Positions 1,379-29,443 of a stretch of DNA of 29,443 nt are shown here, one piece after another. Below the pieces are notes generated by a model. It had not been told where the DNA came from and ran no database searches. It saw only the letters and a program-made list of their open reading frames with translations. Position 1 is the stretch's first letter. Every line of letters begins with the position of its first letter. The stretch lies in IMG/VR virus record IMGVR_UViG_3300036766_002278, positions 1 to 29,443 of that record, one strand, 5' to 3'. The stretch comes from a virus. Made by a program: the position numbers and the translations under genes.

Positions 1379-1416
1379 TGAAATAAAACTTTGAAAAACG
1401 ATCAAGGAAATCCCGT

Positions 1417-2754
1417 GTGGATCCACGTCCCTTTACCATTTTGTCCCTGTGCTCCGGCGTCGGGGGACTCGACCTTGGACTCCGCGTGGCGCAGCCAAAT
1501 GCTCGCACCATCTGTTTTGTCGAGATCGAAGCCTTTGCCTGTGCCATCCTGGCAGCGCGCATGGCAGAAAACGCCCTGGATCCGGCGCCTATTTGGACAA
1601 ATCTTAAAACCTTCGACGGCAAACCATGGCGTGGCGTTGTGGATTGCATCACTGCGGGCTATCCCTGCCAGCCCTTTAGTGTTGCAGGAAAACAAAGAGG
1701 AAGCGAAGACCCACGACACCTCTGGCCAGATGTGTTTCGCGTGGTTCGAGAAATCAACCCACCATTCTGCTTCTTCGAAAACGTCGGTGGACATTTACGA
1801 TTGGGATTTGAACAAGTCCACGATGACCTTCGATCAGTGGGTTACCGCGTTAAGGCAGGCTTGTTCACGGCGCAGGAAGTTGGGGCCCCCCATAAGCGAG
1901 AGCGATTATTCATCTTGGCTTACGCCGAGGGCACAGGAGAGCGGCGAGAAACAGGAAACATTCCTGAAACGCATGGGCGACCGGACAGATCGTTGTTCCA
2001 GTTCACTGGCAGCGCAAGTGACGTTATGGCCGACGGCTCGTGTCTCGTCAGCGAACGGGCCGGCACAGAGCGAGATAGCAGCGGGCAATCCCAAGAGTCG
2101 ATTGGAAGTGTCCGTGATGTACTGGCCGACACCGACGGCGCAGGATTTCAAGAAACGAGGCCCGAACTCCAGCCAGCATGGACTGGCCGAGAGCACGGTC
2201 AACTGGGCAACGCCCAACACGATGGATCATATGCCGCCACGCTCGTCGGAAGCGATGGAGAAAATGCTGGGGCCAGAGGGACAGCGGGCGGGCAGATCCC
2301 GCCCCAGCAATCTGCGCGAACAGATTGTCTGGCCAACACCGCGGGCACAGAAAACATCTTCCGAGAATCCAGAAAGCTGGAAGGCGCGAAGGCAGGCGGG
2401 ACAAGTTTCAACACCGCCACTGGCGATGGCGGCGATCATGTGGCCGACCGTGACGACCCAGGATGCCAAGAACAATGCGGGGCCGAGCCAGTTCGAGCGC
2501 AACACGAAGCCTTTGAATGTGGAAGCGACATTACACGCGGGACGTCCCTTTGGCCGCCAGGGCCGACAGGAAACTGGGACGGGATCCCAAAAAGTCTTGA
2601 ACCCGCGATTTGTCGAATGGCTGATGGGCTGGCCCATCGGGTGGACAGAATTCGTGCGTGCGGAAATGGTGTCGTGCCGCTGGCTGCCGCATATGCGTGG
2701 CGCACTCTCATATCTCATGCACGCGCAACAACAGATGGAGAATACTCAGAATGA
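1417..2754 (+). CDS. Dcm-type DNA (cytosine-5) methyltransferase
   Basis: This 445-residue protein would transfer a methyl group from S-adenosylmethionine to cytosine C5. The family motifs are in order. Motif I is LCSGVGGLDLG (about 11-21). Motif IV is AGYPCQPFSVAGKQRG with catalytic Cys84. Motif VI is FFENV (119-123), motif VIII is PHKRERLFILAYA, and motif X is ACGNGVVPLAAAYAWRTL near the C-terminus. The stretch between VIII and X (about 170-400), where target recognition lies, is built of short LADTDG/LANTAG/VADRDD-like repeats. The start chosen is GTG at 1417, with AAGGA about 8 bases upstream. Its stop overlaps the next start (ATGA). In a phage it most likely protects DNA from host restriction. 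Recognition sequence unknown. Confidence 0.88.
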   Translation: MDPRPFTILSLCSGVGGLDLGLRVAQPNARTICFVEIEAFACAILAARMAENALDPAPIWTNLKTFDGKPWRGVVDCITAGYPCQPFSVAGKQRGSEDPRHLWPDVFRVVREINPPFCFFENVGGHLRLGFEQVHDDLRSVGYRVKAGLFTAQEVGAPHKRERLFILAYAEGTGERRETGNIPETHGRPDRSLFQFTGSASDVMADGSCLVSERAGTERDSSGQSQESIGSVRDVLADTDGAGFQETRPELQPAWTGREHGQLGNAQHDGSYAATLVGSDGENAGARGTAGGQIPPQQSARTDCLANTAGTENIFRESRKLEGAKAGGTSFNTATGDGGDHVADRDDPGCQEQCGAEPVRAQHEAFECGSDITRGTSLWPPGPTGNWDGIPKSLEPAICRMADGLAHRVDRIRACGNGVVPLAAAYAWRTLISHARATTDGEYSE

Positions 2755-2767
2755 CCAATACGCTTGA
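1823..2767 (+). CDS. Alternative-frame W-P-T-P repeat protein overlapping the Dcm gene (putative)
   Basis: The +2 frame inside the Dcm gene stays open from 1391 to 2767. From about 1823 (ATG, MTFDQWVTALRQACSRR) it reads as an organised protein of 314 residues. It has six repeats of the form W-P-T-P-x-A-Q-D, each usually preceded by Leu six or seven residues before the Trp, and it ends with NPRFVEWLMGWPIGWTEF and a WLPHMRGAL tail. From memory, similar W-P-T-P and VEWLMG(F/W)PxGW proteins are annotated in many phages. No strong ribosome binding site precedes 1823, and GTG/ATG starts further upstream (for example 1730) are possible. It may be a real overlapping gene or only the regular shadow of repeats in the Dcm frame. 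Confidence 0.35.
   Translation: MTFDQWVTALRQACSRRRKLGPPISESDYSSWLTPRAQESGEKQETFLKRMGDRTDRCSSSLAAQVTLWPTARVSSANGPAQSEIAAGNPKSRLEVSVMYWPTPTAQDFKKRGPNSSQHGLAESTVNWATPNTMDHMPPRSSEAMEKMLGPEGQRAGRSRPSNLREQIVWPTPRAQKTSSENPESWKARRQAGQVSTPPLAMAAIMWPTVTTQDAKNNAGPSQFERNTKPLNVEATLHAGRPFGRQGRQETGTGSQKVLNPRFVEWLMGWPIGWTEFVRAEMVSCRWLPHMRGALSYLMHAQQQMENTQNDQYA
1916..2467 (+). repeat. Six-copy degenerate repeat readable in two frames
   Basis: Degenerate copies of a repeat close to tGGCCnACnCCnnnnGCnCAgGA begin at 1916, 2027, 2123, 2204, 2330 and 2441. In the Dcm frame they read L-A-D/N-T-x-G. In the +2 frame they read W-P-T-P-x-A-Q-D. The start-to-start distances are 111, 96, 81, 126 and 111 bases. Confidence 0.7.
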
Positions 2768-4007
2768 TTTGCATGTCGAATATCTATCCGTCGATCATTT
2801 GATCCCTTATACACATAATGCCCGCACACATTCGGATGATCAGGTGGCACAGATTGCGGGATCGATGACTGAGTTTGGATTTGTGAACCCGATCCTGATT
2901 GGTGATGATGGTGGGATTATCGCGGGTCATGGCCGTGTGATAGCGGCGCGCATGCTGGGCGTTAAGGAAGTCCCTGTCATTCGGCTTAAACATCTAAACG
3001 ATGTCCAACGCCGCGCCTTGATTATCGCCGATAATAAAATCACTGAAAATGCAGGATGGGATGAAAATCTGCTGCGGCAGGAGTTACAGACCCTTGAAGG
3101 GGAAGATTTCAATCTTGCTCTCCTGGGATTTAATGAGGATGAGCTGGACGAATTACTGGACGACGGATCGGGGGCTGAAGGCCTGACCGATGAAAATGCT
3201 GCTCCCGCAGTTCCCGAAAACCCTGTCAGTGTCTTGGGTGATGTTTGGATTTGCGGTGATCATAAAATCCTGTGTGGAGATTCTACGCTGATTGATAGCT
3301 ATCAAACCCTTTTGGGAGAAGAATTGGCGGACATGGTCTTTACCGATCCGCCCTATAATGTGAATTACGCCAACTCGGCCAAAGACAAGATGCGCGGTAA
3401 ATCCAGACCCATTCAGAATGACAATCTGGGCGAAGATTTCGGGGCGTTTTTGTATGACGTTTGCACCAACCTGATGATGGTGTGCAAAGGCGCGATGTAT
3501 ATCTGTATGTCGTCATCGGAATTGCATACGCTTCATGGTGCTTTCACCAATGCAGGTGGCAAATGGTCAACTTTTATCATCTGGGCCAAGAACACCTTCA
3601 CGCTGGGGCGTGCTGATTATCAACGCCAGTACGAACCCATCCTTTATGGTTGGAAACAGGGCCATGAACATTTCTGGTGCGGCGCGCGCGATCAGAGCGA
3701 TATCTGGTTTGTGAATAAGCCTGTGAAAAATGATTTGCATCCAACCATGAAGCCCGTTGAGCTGGTGGAACGCGCCCTGCATAATTCCAGCAAGACCAAA
3801 GATATTGTGCTGGATGCGTTTGGTGGTTCTGGCACCACTATGATTGCCTGCGAAAAAACAGGTCGTCGTGCCCGTCTAATTGAGCTTGAACCCAGATATG
3901 CCGATGTGATTGTTAAACGCTGGCAGGAATTCACAGGTAAGAAAGCCAAACTCGCAGCGACGGGGCAGAGTTTTGCAGAACTTGAATCCGAACGTATCGT
4001 GAAGTGA
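2751..4007 (+). CDS. ParB-domain DNA methyltransferase (N6-adenine or N4-cytosine)
   Basis: This 418-residue fusion begins with a ParB/Srx-like domain (about 1-110: VDHLIPYTHNARTH, GGIIAGHGRVIAARMLG, ADNKITENAGWD). A methyltransferase follows, with motif IV as DMVFTDPPYNVNY and motif I as VLDAFGGSGTTMIACEKTG near the C-terminus. Motif IV before motif I indicates the beta-type order. The DPPY tetrapeptide is the catalytic motif of amino methyltransferases; it does not tell N6-adenine from N4-cytosine. The ATG at 2751 overlaps the Dcm stop as ATGA, pointing to coupled translation, so I rejected the longer upstream extension. Together with Dcm it forms a modification pair beside the packaging genes, likely for restriction evasion. 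No restriction endonuclease is nearby. Confidence 0.9.
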   Translation: MTNTLDLHVEYLSVDHLIPYTHNARTHSDDQVAQIAGSMTEFGFVNPILIGDDGGIIAGHGRVIAARMLGVKEVPVIRLKHLNDVQRRALIIADNKITENAGWDENLLRQELQTLEGEDFNLALLGFNEDELDELLDDGSGAEGLTDENAAPAVPENPVSVLGDVWICGDHKILCGDSTLIDSYQTLLGEELADMVFTDPPYNVNYANSAKDKMRGKSRPIQNDNLGEDFGAFLYDVCTNLMMVCKGAMYICMSSSELHTLHGAFTNAGGKWSTFIIWAKNTFTLGRADYQRQYEPILYGWKQGHEHFWCGARDQSDIWFVNKPVKNDLHPTMKPVELVERALHNSSKTKDIVLDAFGGSGTTMIACEKTGRRARLIELEPRYADVIVKRWQEFTGKKAKLAATGQSFAELESERIVK

Positions 4008-26119: not shown

Positions 26120-29100
26120 TTATTCTAGTAGCTCTGACCACTTTGCTTTTCCCTGCCCATATCTGTGAATATGTGCGCGGGAATCCCCCTCCTGAAAATC
26201 GGCATAATAAAGACTGATTTCTGTGTCTTCTAAGGTACGTTTTAGATAGATAAGACGTTCATAGTCTGGGTTGCATATCCAAACTGTCCCCCCATCTGCT
26301 GAATTAATCTCAACACGATAGGGAATGCCCACTGCAGGTTTAAAATCATCGAACAAAGTTTTATCTAACTGCCGAGGAATAGAAGTAGATTTCCATTTTT
26401 GATTTCTTTCTCCTCGCAACATATCCTCTCGGAAATTTTTCCACAGATCTGAGGTTTTTATGGTCGGCCAGTCTTCTCCATTTGTTAAAGCGGTTATTTG
26501 ATCTGATTCAAGCCACTCTCGCATATCAGACATATCAAGAAATGTTGGATTTGTATCCATGACAGATTTTATTGCAGCTATTCTGGAAGATAGACCCGCC
26601 CTTATTAATAATGCCATCATGTATGATGAAACCCCCGTTTCTAGCGCAGCAGCGGCTCCGCCAGTGATGATTTCAGAACTCCAGCCCAGAGATGTTCTAC
26701 GTTGGCGCAGGGCTTCCAATGCCCAAACCAACCGATAGGTGAAAACGTCTTCAATAAATTCCATGTTATTAGAGCCGATAGTCGATACATCTGCGCCAGA
26801 AACCCACATGAGCAAAAGATTTTTCCAATCTAAAGGCAGGGCTTTGTTTGGTTTAAAGGGACGTATCAAAAGTAACCTTTCAGCAATAGCGGTAAGGGAA
26901 ATTACAAGCTGTCCAACATTCCCCTGGAGTACCGCCAGATCCGCCGTGTCTAGATGCGTAGAAAGCTCATCGGCCATCGCATCAATTGAAAGACCCGTTT
27001 TTAATCCAACACCCATTGCGAAGTGGCTTTTTCGTGACTCTGGTGTGGTGTTATTCCAAATCAGTTTCGCGCGAGCCTGCAAAATGAACCGATGGTTGTT
27101 TTCGGTCTGCGCTCCTGCTTCGGCGATGCTTCTTACCCAGAGCGAGCCGTTGAGGGCCTCATCCAGCAAGCGAGGGAGATCCTCTGCATCGGCATCAAGG
27201 GTATTTATTAGCCCAATGACCATAGCGTCTAATTTTTCAATTAGGTTTTCAAACGGCTCTCTGGCATCATTCTGTGGTTCCGTGATAGTCCATGAATCAC
27301 GGGAGTTAACGAGGTAATCGAAAGCATCGGCGCGCGAAAAAGTACCTGTTGCCGCCATACGATTAAGTATTTCATTGATGACCTGATATAGACCGCTTTG
27401 AATATGGCGCGCTCGGGCAGAGGCTAAGAGATTCTCCCAGTTTTGTACACTGTTGTACTTAAGTTCAAAAATAGGGTGAATGATGGTTCCTTCAACGTCG
27501 ACAAAAGCACGGCCAGCTCTTCCAGCTACATTGGCAAACTCCTCTCCTTTAAGAGGTTCGCCATTGCGAACTAAATAAGGCACAAGGAGAACTGCCGCAT
27601 TTATATTTAGCCCCTGAGACAATGTCGGAGAGGCCGCAATGACTTTTATAGTTCCGCTTGCAAGAAGGAGTTCTAACTCTCTTAAAAAGGGATTTGGTAA
27701 TTGCCCATGATGAATCGCAACACCAGTTTTTAAAGCCTGAACGGCGGGGTGATCTACCCCGAGCCATTCCTCTCCAACGGTCAAGGCGCGTTGGATATCG
27801 TCAGGATTATCAAGCAAAGAATGCAAGTATCCCTCTTTAACCAATTCAATCGCTCGTTTCCCATACCCAGAAACCCAGCTTGCTGTGCTGATAAAAATAA
27901 GGGTCTTTTTTCCTTGCTCTGCAAACTTCCATGCAGCAAGGAGAGTTAAATCCCGCACATCCTTTGGTGGGGGGTTTTTTCGCCCTGTTTTAGCGGGTTT
28001 TTCTACAAAATTTGGAAAAAACGCCCCCTCTTTATATTCCAGTCTCGCACGGTCATTACTCCAGATCAGCGTCCCGTAGCGTTGCCTTGTCGGCCTCCAA
28101 GGGGACTTAATGGGAGTGCCATCCACATCGCTTCTCATCCATGCCGTAAGGTCATTAAGCTCTTTACCATCTGGAAGAATAGCCGACAGACAGACTAATC
28201 TACGGTTATCTGCGTCTGCTCTACGAAGCAGTTTCTGCACGAGAATTTCATACCGAATCTCGCGCTCGGATGTTCCGATCATATGCCCTTCATCAAGGAC
28301 GATAAGTCCAATATCGTCAATAAGGGACGCATCATTACGCAGCGCAAAATCTAGTTTTTCTGGGGTCGTGATGACGATGTTTTTTGAACGTAATGCGTCC
28401 ACATCGTTTGATGAACCGCTTGCACCATACAGCGATGAAACACTATATCCCAACGGCGCGAAGGTTCTGCGGAAAGAGCGTTCTGTTTGGGCAGATAAGG
28501 CGCGCAAAGGAGTAACAATCAATACGCGCTTTTCTGATGAAAGGGTTATAAGGGCGGCAATTTCTGCTATTCTGGTCTTTCCTGCGCTGGTGGGGAGCGC
28601 AACTACCAGATCGTCGCCTAGATTTCCGGCGCGTTTGGCCGCTTCCAACTGCGAAGGCCAAAGTTCAACTTCTGCTGTTTTTCGTGCATAGAGAGACAAA
28701 ATAAATTTCTCCCTCATTTCAGAATAAGCTGTAGCCGTGACTTCTTGCGTCGTGGGCAGGGTCATATGAAGGGAATGTACCCAAAGGTCATCTATAAGAT
28801 TTAGAGATAAGCGAATAACCCACCATAGGGGGACGATGCCCGTGTCTCTGGCGAGTGCCAATGTATCTTTTAGTATCCCTCTAGCCCCATTAAGTGGCTC
28901 AAGCTTTCCTGTTTGTAACGCGAAATCAAAATAGAGGAGCGCGCGGCAAACAGATGAATTCAGGATAATGCTATAAGCATCATCTTCGCTATATTCAATG
29001 TCTTTCGCCAGAAGATTCTTTTTGATTTCATCATCTCTATGGCTTTTATCCCTTAGCCATGCGCGGGATAGATCATGCAGCCTTCTAAAGTCACGAAGAA

Positions 29101-29443
29101 TAAGGCATGAAAGGGCTTGTTCTGCAATATTCAAGTTTTGGCCATGTTGGGAATGGCTAAGTAGAGAATATGCTACCGCAGAATAATTAGCCAAATGGTA
29201 AGCGCTAGCCGCCATTATACGATAGAAGTCAGTTTCATGGTCATTGGGCGCATTGTTCTTAACGAGTGCCTCAAATGCCTTTCCTGCAAATTCGAATCCT
29301 CTTTTTGCGATAGAAAGGTTACCTTGCTTTTCTTTCAGTGAAAGAGCAGATAGCAAAAGACTAAAGGCATAATCCGCTAAATCATCCTGAATCGTATCGC
29401 CGAATTTTGGGGCGTATAAGGGTAACTCCCCTTCACGCCGCAT
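26120..29443 (-). CDS. Ski2-like SF2 helicase, possible defence gene (start at or beyond the edge)
   Basis: This protein of at least 1107 residues runs opposite to the phage genes. Residues 1-240 are helical and TPR-like. The helicase core follows, with LWPSQ (Q motif, Gln265), ALPTSAGKT (motif I, 282-290), TPLRALSAQ (Ia), DEGH (II, 384-387), SAI (III), TLIFIST (IV), SPTLSQGLNI (V) and NVAGRAGRA (VI, 638-646). The C-terminal 440 residues are of unknown role. The core matches Ski2/Hel308-type helicases such as those in defence systems (for example Hachiman HamB), but a partner nuclease would lie outside the window. The AUG at the last base position may not be the true start. Base use looks more A+T-rich than the phage genes, suggesting separate origin. 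Confidence 0.8.
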   Translation of the reverse strand: MRREGELPLYAPKFGDTIQDDLADYAFSLLLSALSLKEKQGNLSIAKRGFEFAGKAFEALVKNNAPNDHETDFYRIMAASAYHLANYSAVAYSLLSHSQHGQNLNIAEQALSCLILRDFRRLHDLSRAWLRDKSHRDDEIKKNLLAKDIEYSEDDAYSIILNSSVCRALLYFDFALQTGKLEPLNGARGILKDTLALARDTGIVPLWWVIRLSLNLIDDLWVHSLHMTLPTTQEVTATAYSEMREKFILSLYARKTAEVELWPSQLEAAKRAGNLGDDLVVALPTSAGKTRIAEIAALITLSSEKRVLIVTPLRALSAQTERSFRRTFAPLGYSVSSLYGASGSSNDVDALRSKNIVITTPEKLDFALRNDASLIDDIGLIVLDEGHMIGTSEREIRYEILVQKLLRRADADNRRLVCLSAILPDGKELNDLTAWMRSDVDGTPIKSPWRPTRQRYGTLIWSNDRARLEYKEGAFFPNFVEKPAKTGRKNPPPKDVRDLTLLAAWKFAEQGKKTLIFISTASWVSGYGKRAIELVKEGYLHSLLDNPDDIQRALTVGEEWLGVDHPAVQALKTGVAIHHGQLPNPFLRELELLLASGTIKVIAASPTLSQGLNINAAVLLVPYLVRNGEPLKGEEFANVAGRAGRAFVDVEGTIIHPIFELKYNSVQNWENLLASARARHIQSGLYQVINEILNRMAATGTFSRADAFDYLVNSRDSWTITEPQNDAREPFENLIEKLDAMVIGLINTLDADAEDLPRLLDEALNGSLWVRSIAEAGAQTENNHRFILQARAKLIWNNTTPESRKSHFAMGVGLKTGLSIDAMADELSTHLDTADLAVLQGNVGQLVISLTAIAERLLLIRPFKPNKALPLDWKNLLLMWVSGADVSTIGSNNMEFIEDVFTYRLVWALEALRQRRTSLGWSSEIITGGAAAALETGVSSYMMALLIRAGLSSRIAAIKSVMDTNPTFLDMSDMREWLESDQITALTNGEDWPTIKTSDLWKNFREDMLRGERNQKWKSTSIPRQLDKTLFDDFKPAVGIPYRVEINSADGGTVWICNPDYERLIYLKRTLEDTEISLYYADFQEGDSRAHIHRYGQGKAKWSELLE

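Follow-up and report, generated by a model that had tools for sequence, protein, structure and literature searches.

A probable two-polypeptide cytosine-5 DNA methyltransferase of phages, with subunits overlapping in two reading frames and a shuffled array of candidate recognition units

In the M.EcoHK31I system, of which M.EaeI is an isoschizomer, the gene of the β polypeptide lies within the α gene in another reading frame. M.EcoHK31I (YGGCCR) is a two-polypeptide m5C methyltransferase in which α holds motifs I–VIII and X and β holds motif IX, while the target-recognition domain (TRD) is predicted to reside in α (PMC3404938). The α and β chains of M.AquI are encoded separately, the break between them falling after motif VIII and before the TRD ends. 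In the multispecific methyltransferases of Bacillus phages, tandem recognition domains are found between motifs VIII and IX, and their size resembles that of the modules described below. A single gene of this kind encodes a tandem series of target-recognition domains (PMC8936443). Finally, circularly permuted and split forms of M.SssI and M.MpeI have been engineered, in which helix X is kept with the large domain and the split precedes the TRD, so that the two chains correspond to the two domains (PMC5944983).

The locus considered here belongs to a 29.4-kb stretch of viral DNA (29,443 nucleotides, IMG/VR virus record IMGVR_UViG_3300036766_002278), hereafter the window. As in M.EcoHK31I, the α chain of the window and its relatives contains motifs I–VIII and X, motif IX is located in a second polypeptide, and the β gene is nested in another frame. 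The differences concern the β chain, which is small in M.EcoHK31I, and the TRD, which is predicted in α there, whereas here its place is taken by the module array of β: in this region selection acts on the β frame, and residues 179–380 of α are predicted to be disordered. Furthermore, the present family is phage-borne and widespread. The analogy with M.AquI is clearest for the un-nested relatives (loci L030, L131 and L183, and Arthrobacter phages Jamun and KHumphrey), in which modules, motif IX and motif X belong to the second protein; in contrast, the window and most of its relatives keep motif X in α and have fully overlapping genes. The putative recognition domains, arranged in tandem in one gene, recall SPR, phi3T, rho11, H2 and M.phiBssHII, but those enzymes are single in-frame proteins, while here the array occupies the other frame, consists of other module sequences and reaches up to about nine modules. 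The partition is the same as in split M.SssI and M.MpeI and occurs here in nature, whereas those are engineered, with separate genes and one TRD. Judging from the sequence comparisons described below, it is highly probable that the product of the locus is a cytosine-5 DNA methyltransferase made of two polypeptides with overlapping genes in different frames, β carrying a shuffled array of candidate recognition units.

A previous sequence-only reading described the Dcm frame as uninterrupted from 1417 to 2754, and this is confirmed: the open reading frame starts with GTG and its product matches PF00145 (E = 6e-36; 6.2e-36), although only over residues 6–179. The second frame, labelled "+2" in that reading, is in fact shifted by +1 relative to Dcm; it extends to the stop at 2767, as had been stated, and is free of stops from 1382 onward. 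The β start is probably GTG 1415, two bases ahead of the Dcm start GTG 1417, and the AAGGA at 1404–1408 is proposed to be common to both subunits. The main features of the locus are the following.

1404–1408, plus strand: Shine-Dalgarno-like AAGGA, 6 nt upstream of GTG 1415 and 8 nt upstream of GTG 1417
1415–2767, plus strand: putative β subunit in the +1 frame, probably initiating at GTG 1415; carries the W-x-T-P modules followed by motif IX
1417–2754, plus strand: putative α subunit (annotated Dcm), frame 0; GTG start; motifs I–VIII, disordered passenger stretch, motif X
1441–1917, plus strand: α motifs I–VIII (LSLCSGVGG ... PCQPFS ... ENV ... RERLFIL); M.HhaI profile match and Foldseek
1951–2556, plus strand: α passenger stretch with LADT-type repeats; pLDDT below 50 for residues 179–380, wobble of the β frame
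2548–2754, plus strand: α C-terminal part (WPPGP ... GLAHRVDR ... CGNGVVP motif X helix), doubly coded with β
2597–2653, plus strand: motif IX in the β frame (LNPRFVEWLMGWPIGWTEF); the L047 counterpart aligns with M.HhaI 268–308

M.HhaI residues 11–174 match the α profile (5e-34), and the AlphaFold model of α matches M.HhaI in Foldseek (5.6e-15), with pLDDT values above 90 for residues 1–178, about 90 for the motif X helix and below 50 for residues 179–380. Motifs I–VIII of the C5-cytosine methyltransferases are present, PCQ and E121 being invariant in the alignment, and W387, R408, G416, N417 and P421 are near-invariant. The motif X and C-terminal helix of PF00145 methyltransferases are also recognized, with CGNGVVP (GNxV) at 2659–2679. 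The Dcm frame had been credited with all catalytic motifs; this does not hold, as it contains I–VIII and X only. Motif IX, expected by the PF00145 criterion in the same polypeptide as the catalytic motifs, is absent from α and lies in the other frame. The α chain is without a structured TRD, and the place of the TRD is filled by the β modules.

In the case of β, a Pfam search matched no family. Among phage families, it matches phrog_1008 (2.9e-28) and phrog_27243 (8.5e-15); PHROG 1008 and 27243 include β under the label "DNA methyltransferase" or as unknown, and are silent on a partner subunit overlapping α. The AlphaFold model is poor (mean pLDDT 57.7), Foldseek with this model gave no structural match, and PDB searches with β alone and with the β profile returned nothing relevant. 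The β motif LNPxWVEWLMGxPxGW, which reads LNPRFVEWLMGWPIGW in the +1 frame of the window and precedes the C-terminal end LNPRFVEWLMGWPIGWT, fits motif IX in sequence. Since the PDB and fold searches are empty, this identity rests on L047 and on the un-nested copies. L047 represents a third partition, in which the modules alone are in the +1 frame and motifs IX and X are both back in the α frame (2796–3989). Here PF00145 spans residues 1–390 and is matched over positions 1–320 of 324, and in the HMMER alignment RRLNPRFVEWMMGLPDGW of L047 faces RKLHPRECARVMGYPDSY of M.HhaI (268–308), a segment that is weak when taken alone (4.4 bits) and is colinear with the catalytic match.

The missing structural match, together with database matches confined to methyltransferase-labelled phage families, would also suit an unrelated overprinted protein, such as a nuclease, an inhibitor or an anti-restriction protein, standing outside the methyltransferase. 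This is, however, a very improbable explanation: α lacks both motif IX and the TRD and β brings a motif-IX-like segment at the right place, β runs in frame into motif X in L039, L030 and L131, and the same motif IX stands in frame within α in L047. The two proteins, which the sequence-only reading had not connected, look like two halves of one enzyme. As α folds like M.HhaI except for residues 179–380, and β has motif IX, α would be the large domain and β the small domain (TRD plus motif IX).

A second open frame could nevertheless be a mere shadow of Dcm, open because of base composition and conserved through Dcm conservation. The absence of a Pfam match for β would agree with this, as would the fact that, on inspection, VEWLMGxPxGWT can be read as the +1 frame of the Dcm stretch R-x-A-D/H-G-x-x-x-R-V-D-R beside motif X. 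The substitution pattern, however, argues against it. Counted by α (Dcm) codon position 1/2/3 over 29 pairs of related loci, which are partly related to one another, substitutions occur at rates of.109/.058/.229 in motifs IV–VIII,.230/.070/.076 in the modules,.176/.050/.070 in motif IX and.139/.047/.321 in motif X. Over motifs I–VIII and X the most-changing site is the third Dcm position, like in an ordinary Dcm gene, while over the modules and the VEWLMG motif it is the first Dcm position, a site that serves as wobble in the +1 frame but not in Dcm. The signal persists when lineages are taken separately, and the pairs that include the window itself agree, with counts of 12/2/2, 17/8/8 and 13/4/3 over the modules and of 17/5/33, 14/4/34 and 16/6/38 over motifs IV–VIII. 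This shift of the wobble position between regions indicates that the selected frame goes 0, +1, 0 along the gene. Consequently, it is the annotated Dcm frame that is the passenger, or shadow, in mid-gene, a point absent from the sequence-only reading; this includes the LADT repeats, the LADTDG-type repeats of α being a shifted reading of WPTPTA. Purifying selection on both frames, as expected of overlapping genes, is observed.

The open-frame tests lead in the same direction. From Dcm-synonymous codon shuffles, 3.9 stops would be expected in the +1 frame of the window's gene, which contains none (P = 0.004, taking this gene by itself), and scores of relatives likewise exhibit +1 openness beyond chance. 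In most loci, from contigs of 36–64% G+C, hardly any shuffle attains an open +1 run as long as the longest one observed, low-GC contigs included, which is difficult to reconcile with a compositional shadow. By β-synonymous shuffles, 1.6 of the 72 loci picked by motif IX alone and 0.4 of the 61 picked by module T0 alone would be expected to keep α open across the array; the numbers observed are 67 and 60, whereas stops in the third frame are near expectation in the two locus sets (606 vs 586 and 588 vs 520 expected). Although a passenger there, α is thus constrained to remain open. Loci picked by β are biased to an open β; the 18 loci picked by α alone are free of that bias, and β is open in all of them (6 expected). 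Motif IX lies in the +1 frame relative to α in 77 of 78 loci. L143 and L213, which are apparent single-base frameshifts, were left out of the evidence. The α frame is broken over the array in L089, L090, L105, L113 and L131, and also in L183, and loci without the constraint (e.g., L089, L105 and L183) show stops at about the expected number. In L089, L090 and L105, 8–17 α stops are found over the array, with motif X still conserved in frame 0 and β intact. A local compositional effect was observed in L020–L024, where the dual-coded gene has about 50% G+C in contigs of 37–41% G+C, as if double coding raised the G+C content locally.

The β frame also possesses its own start signals. Of 66 loci in which β is open back to the α start, 56 have a β start codon at −2, +4 or −5 nt from it, and in the other class, where the first internal ATG or GTG after β opens was taken, a Shine-Dalgarno of at least 5 nt precedes 84 of 111 starts (76%), against 23 of 296 control starts (8%); the choice of start was automatic and is unsure in some loci, and the figures for the coupled and the internal class are plain tallies that do not stand for independent events. 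Coupled starts comprise GTGTG at 1415/1417 in the window, ATGTG and RTGAATG, and apparently a single Shine-Dalgarno, where one is seen, serves both frames. These starts argue that β is very likely translated as its own, separate chain. With both frames selected and provided with start signals, two polypeptides would be produced from one stretch of DNA.

The un-nested forms provide a further point of comparison. In L039, a 175-kb phage contig with 33% G+C, the α N-terminal part is followed by an HNH-like gene (2001–2849) and then by a separate β gene, in which eight modules, IX and X are in one frame; the other two frames of this array contain 35 and 47 stops. In L030, L131, L183, Jamun and KHumphrey the modules, IX and X are located in a second ORF. 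On the tree of the α N-domain, a quick tree with many weak forks, the non-nested forms are scattered and require 7 changes, so that the organisation probably changed repeatedly while the proteins persisted. The existence of these copies, L039 not even overlapping, bears directly on the shadow explanation, as does the position of motif IX in Paenibacillus and Bacillus-type loci, where it precedes motif X by about 50–65 codons and so is not that shadow there. Taken with the substitution pattern, the shuffles and the start signals, they leave the shadow-only explanation with almost no probability, and it was rejected. The second frame is real. Between the true dual-coded gene and the annotation artefact that the sequence-only reading had offered as alternatives, substitutions, shuffles and start signals decide for dual coding and against the artefact. 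The two observations by which that reading would have recognized a shadow, namely neutral substitutions in the overlap and no W-P-T-P protein outside Dcm overlaps, are both contradicted: substitutions are strongly non-neutral for the second frame, and such proteins exist in the un-nested loci listed above.

The arrangement in L131 and L030, in which the modules, IX and X follow motifs I–VIII in the +1 frame, also means that a single +1 shift would yield a conventional monomer. One polypeptide made by programmed +1 (and back) frameshifting, instead of two subunits, is nevertheless quite unlikely, because β has its own starts, either internal with a Shine-Dalgarno or located 2–5 nt from the α start, because the fusion in the nested form would be without motif X unless the ribosome shifted back, and because in L039 a separate gene stands between the two parts. 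Two separate subunits are thus preferred.

The β array itself was analyzed by cutting 593 units of about 41 residues, beginning with W/L/F-x-T-P, by pattern from 133 arrays; in some arrays the leading one or two units so obtained correspond to the stretch overlapping motifs IV–VIII and are not true modules. The units fall into 57 types (491 of 593), with 102 in no type, and the number of modules per array varies from about 1 to 9. Both orders are represented for 25 of the 84 type pairs that were encountered at least three times. The commonest type, T0 (TPNTMDHM...NLREQV), occurs in 75 of the 133 arrays, at positions 1 to 7. The same types are found in nested and un-nested forms and are kept across distant phages. 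As in the multispecific phage m5C methyltransferases, the tandem modules lie between motifs VIII and IX; unlike in those enzymes, they are not in one chain with the catalytic domain, T0 being +1 to α in 72 of 72 loci. The array of the window consists of six modules.

1916–2026, plus strand: β module 1, type T18 (WLTPRAQESGEKQETFLKRMGDRT), starts WLTP
2027–2122, plus strand: β module 2, type T30 (WPTARVSSANGPAQSEI), starts WPTA
2123–2203, plus strand: β module 3, type T1 (WPTPTAQDFKKRGPNSSQHG), starts WPTP
2204–2329, plus strand: β module 4, type T0 (WATPNTMDHM...NLREQI), starts WATP
2330–2440, plus strand: β module 5, type T37 (WPTPRAQKTSSENPESWKARRQ), starts WPTP
2441–2596, plus strand: β module 6, type T4 (WPTVTTQDAKNNAGPSQFERNTKPLN), starts WPTV; type also present in Arthrobacter phages Jamun and KHumphrey

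Six W-P-T-P-x-A-Q-D units had been announced, and six units are present, of which just one reads exactly WPTPTAQD. What had been described as repeats are in fact typed and shuffled modules.

From their position, size and modularity, and by analogy with the Bacillus phage enzymes, each module may be a DNA-recognition domain. The variable number of modules and the 102 untyped units would also be consistent with a two-subunit methyltransferase in which a single module recognises DNA and the others are spacers or remnants. This is rather unlikely, given that module types are kept across distant phages, that purifying selection extends over the whole array in the β frame, and that Bacillus phage enzymes offer a precedent for recognition domains arranged in tandem (PMC8936443). 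The following picture is reasonably likely: phages would share a pool of dozens of swappable W-x-T-P recognition modules of about 40 residues, which differ from phage to phage in how many there are and how they are arranged, and which make up a specificity subunit read in the shifted frame from the gene of its catalytic partner. Each array would then be a natural, readable record of the restriction sites that each phage protects, and the dual-frame gene would keep the subunits together.

Collectively, these findings are consistent with a mechanism in which α, in frame 0, would provide the catalytic large domain, with motifs I–VIII and X linked through a passenger segment for which disorder is predicted, and β, in the +1 frame, would provide motif IX preceded by typed W-x-T-P modules and so stand where the small DNA-recognising domain belongs. 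The sequences suggest that α and β may assemble into one active enzyme. If each module is a separate target-recognition domain, one β could direct methylation to a number of sequences and let the phage escape more than one restriction enzyme, and the exchange of modules between phages may re-set specificity. The arrangement probably originated from frameshifts on either side of the small domain. The enzyme would have survived the transfer of this domain to another frame, since the large and small domains are able to complement one another when made as two chains.

The genes surrounding the locus deserve a brief description. The ATG of the next gene (2751–4007), an N6_N4 methyltransferase (PF01555) with an N-terminal part that is ParB-like by eye, overlaps the α stop (ATGA), which suggests translational coupling of the two methyltransferases. 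An SBF-family transporter, ACR3-like by eye, is located at 1–1035 directly before the phage genes and is possibly the host flank of a prophage. At 26120–29443, on the minus strand, a DEAD-box helicase of 1107 aa matches PADLOC HamB of the Hachiman defence over its full length (E 0); it adjoins the lysis-like end of the prophage, and its partner HamA would fall beyond the end of the record.

Relatives in IMG/VR number at least 461 by motif IX and at least 550 by module T0, and T0 has 4 matches in 84,980 bacterial genomes, while a plasmid collection gave 5 β matches. The nested methyltransferase is thus essentially a phage system, carried by hundreds of phage contigs. GenBank phages annotate the arrangement inconsistently, and databases usually hold only one half: in Synechococcus phages JY39 and M2-251 (L004/L008) the same locus is a +1 "hypothetical protein" in one and Dcm in the other, and in Paenibacillus larvae phage Diva the +1 ORF is entered as "g49 internal gene". 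Our literature search found no paper describing the nested arrangement in phages, and in a comparison of Paenibacillus larvae phages the methyltransferase genes are present only as list entries.

If this interpretation is correct, what was a curiosity of a few enzymes would become a widespread gene organisation of phages, in which more than 1 kb is double-coded and each of the two products corresponds to one domain of the same enzyme. A systematic annotation error would also be corrected, since the central ~200 residues of many "Dcm" proteins would be a passenger, and the recognition subunit is missing or listed as "hypothetical". Furthermore, a protein that exists in nested, split and separate form would offer a test bed for the evolution of overlapping genes. 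Finally, if the modules are recognition domains, a catalogue tying module types to methylated sequences may be compiled, from which the restriction enzymes that a phage can escape would be predicted.
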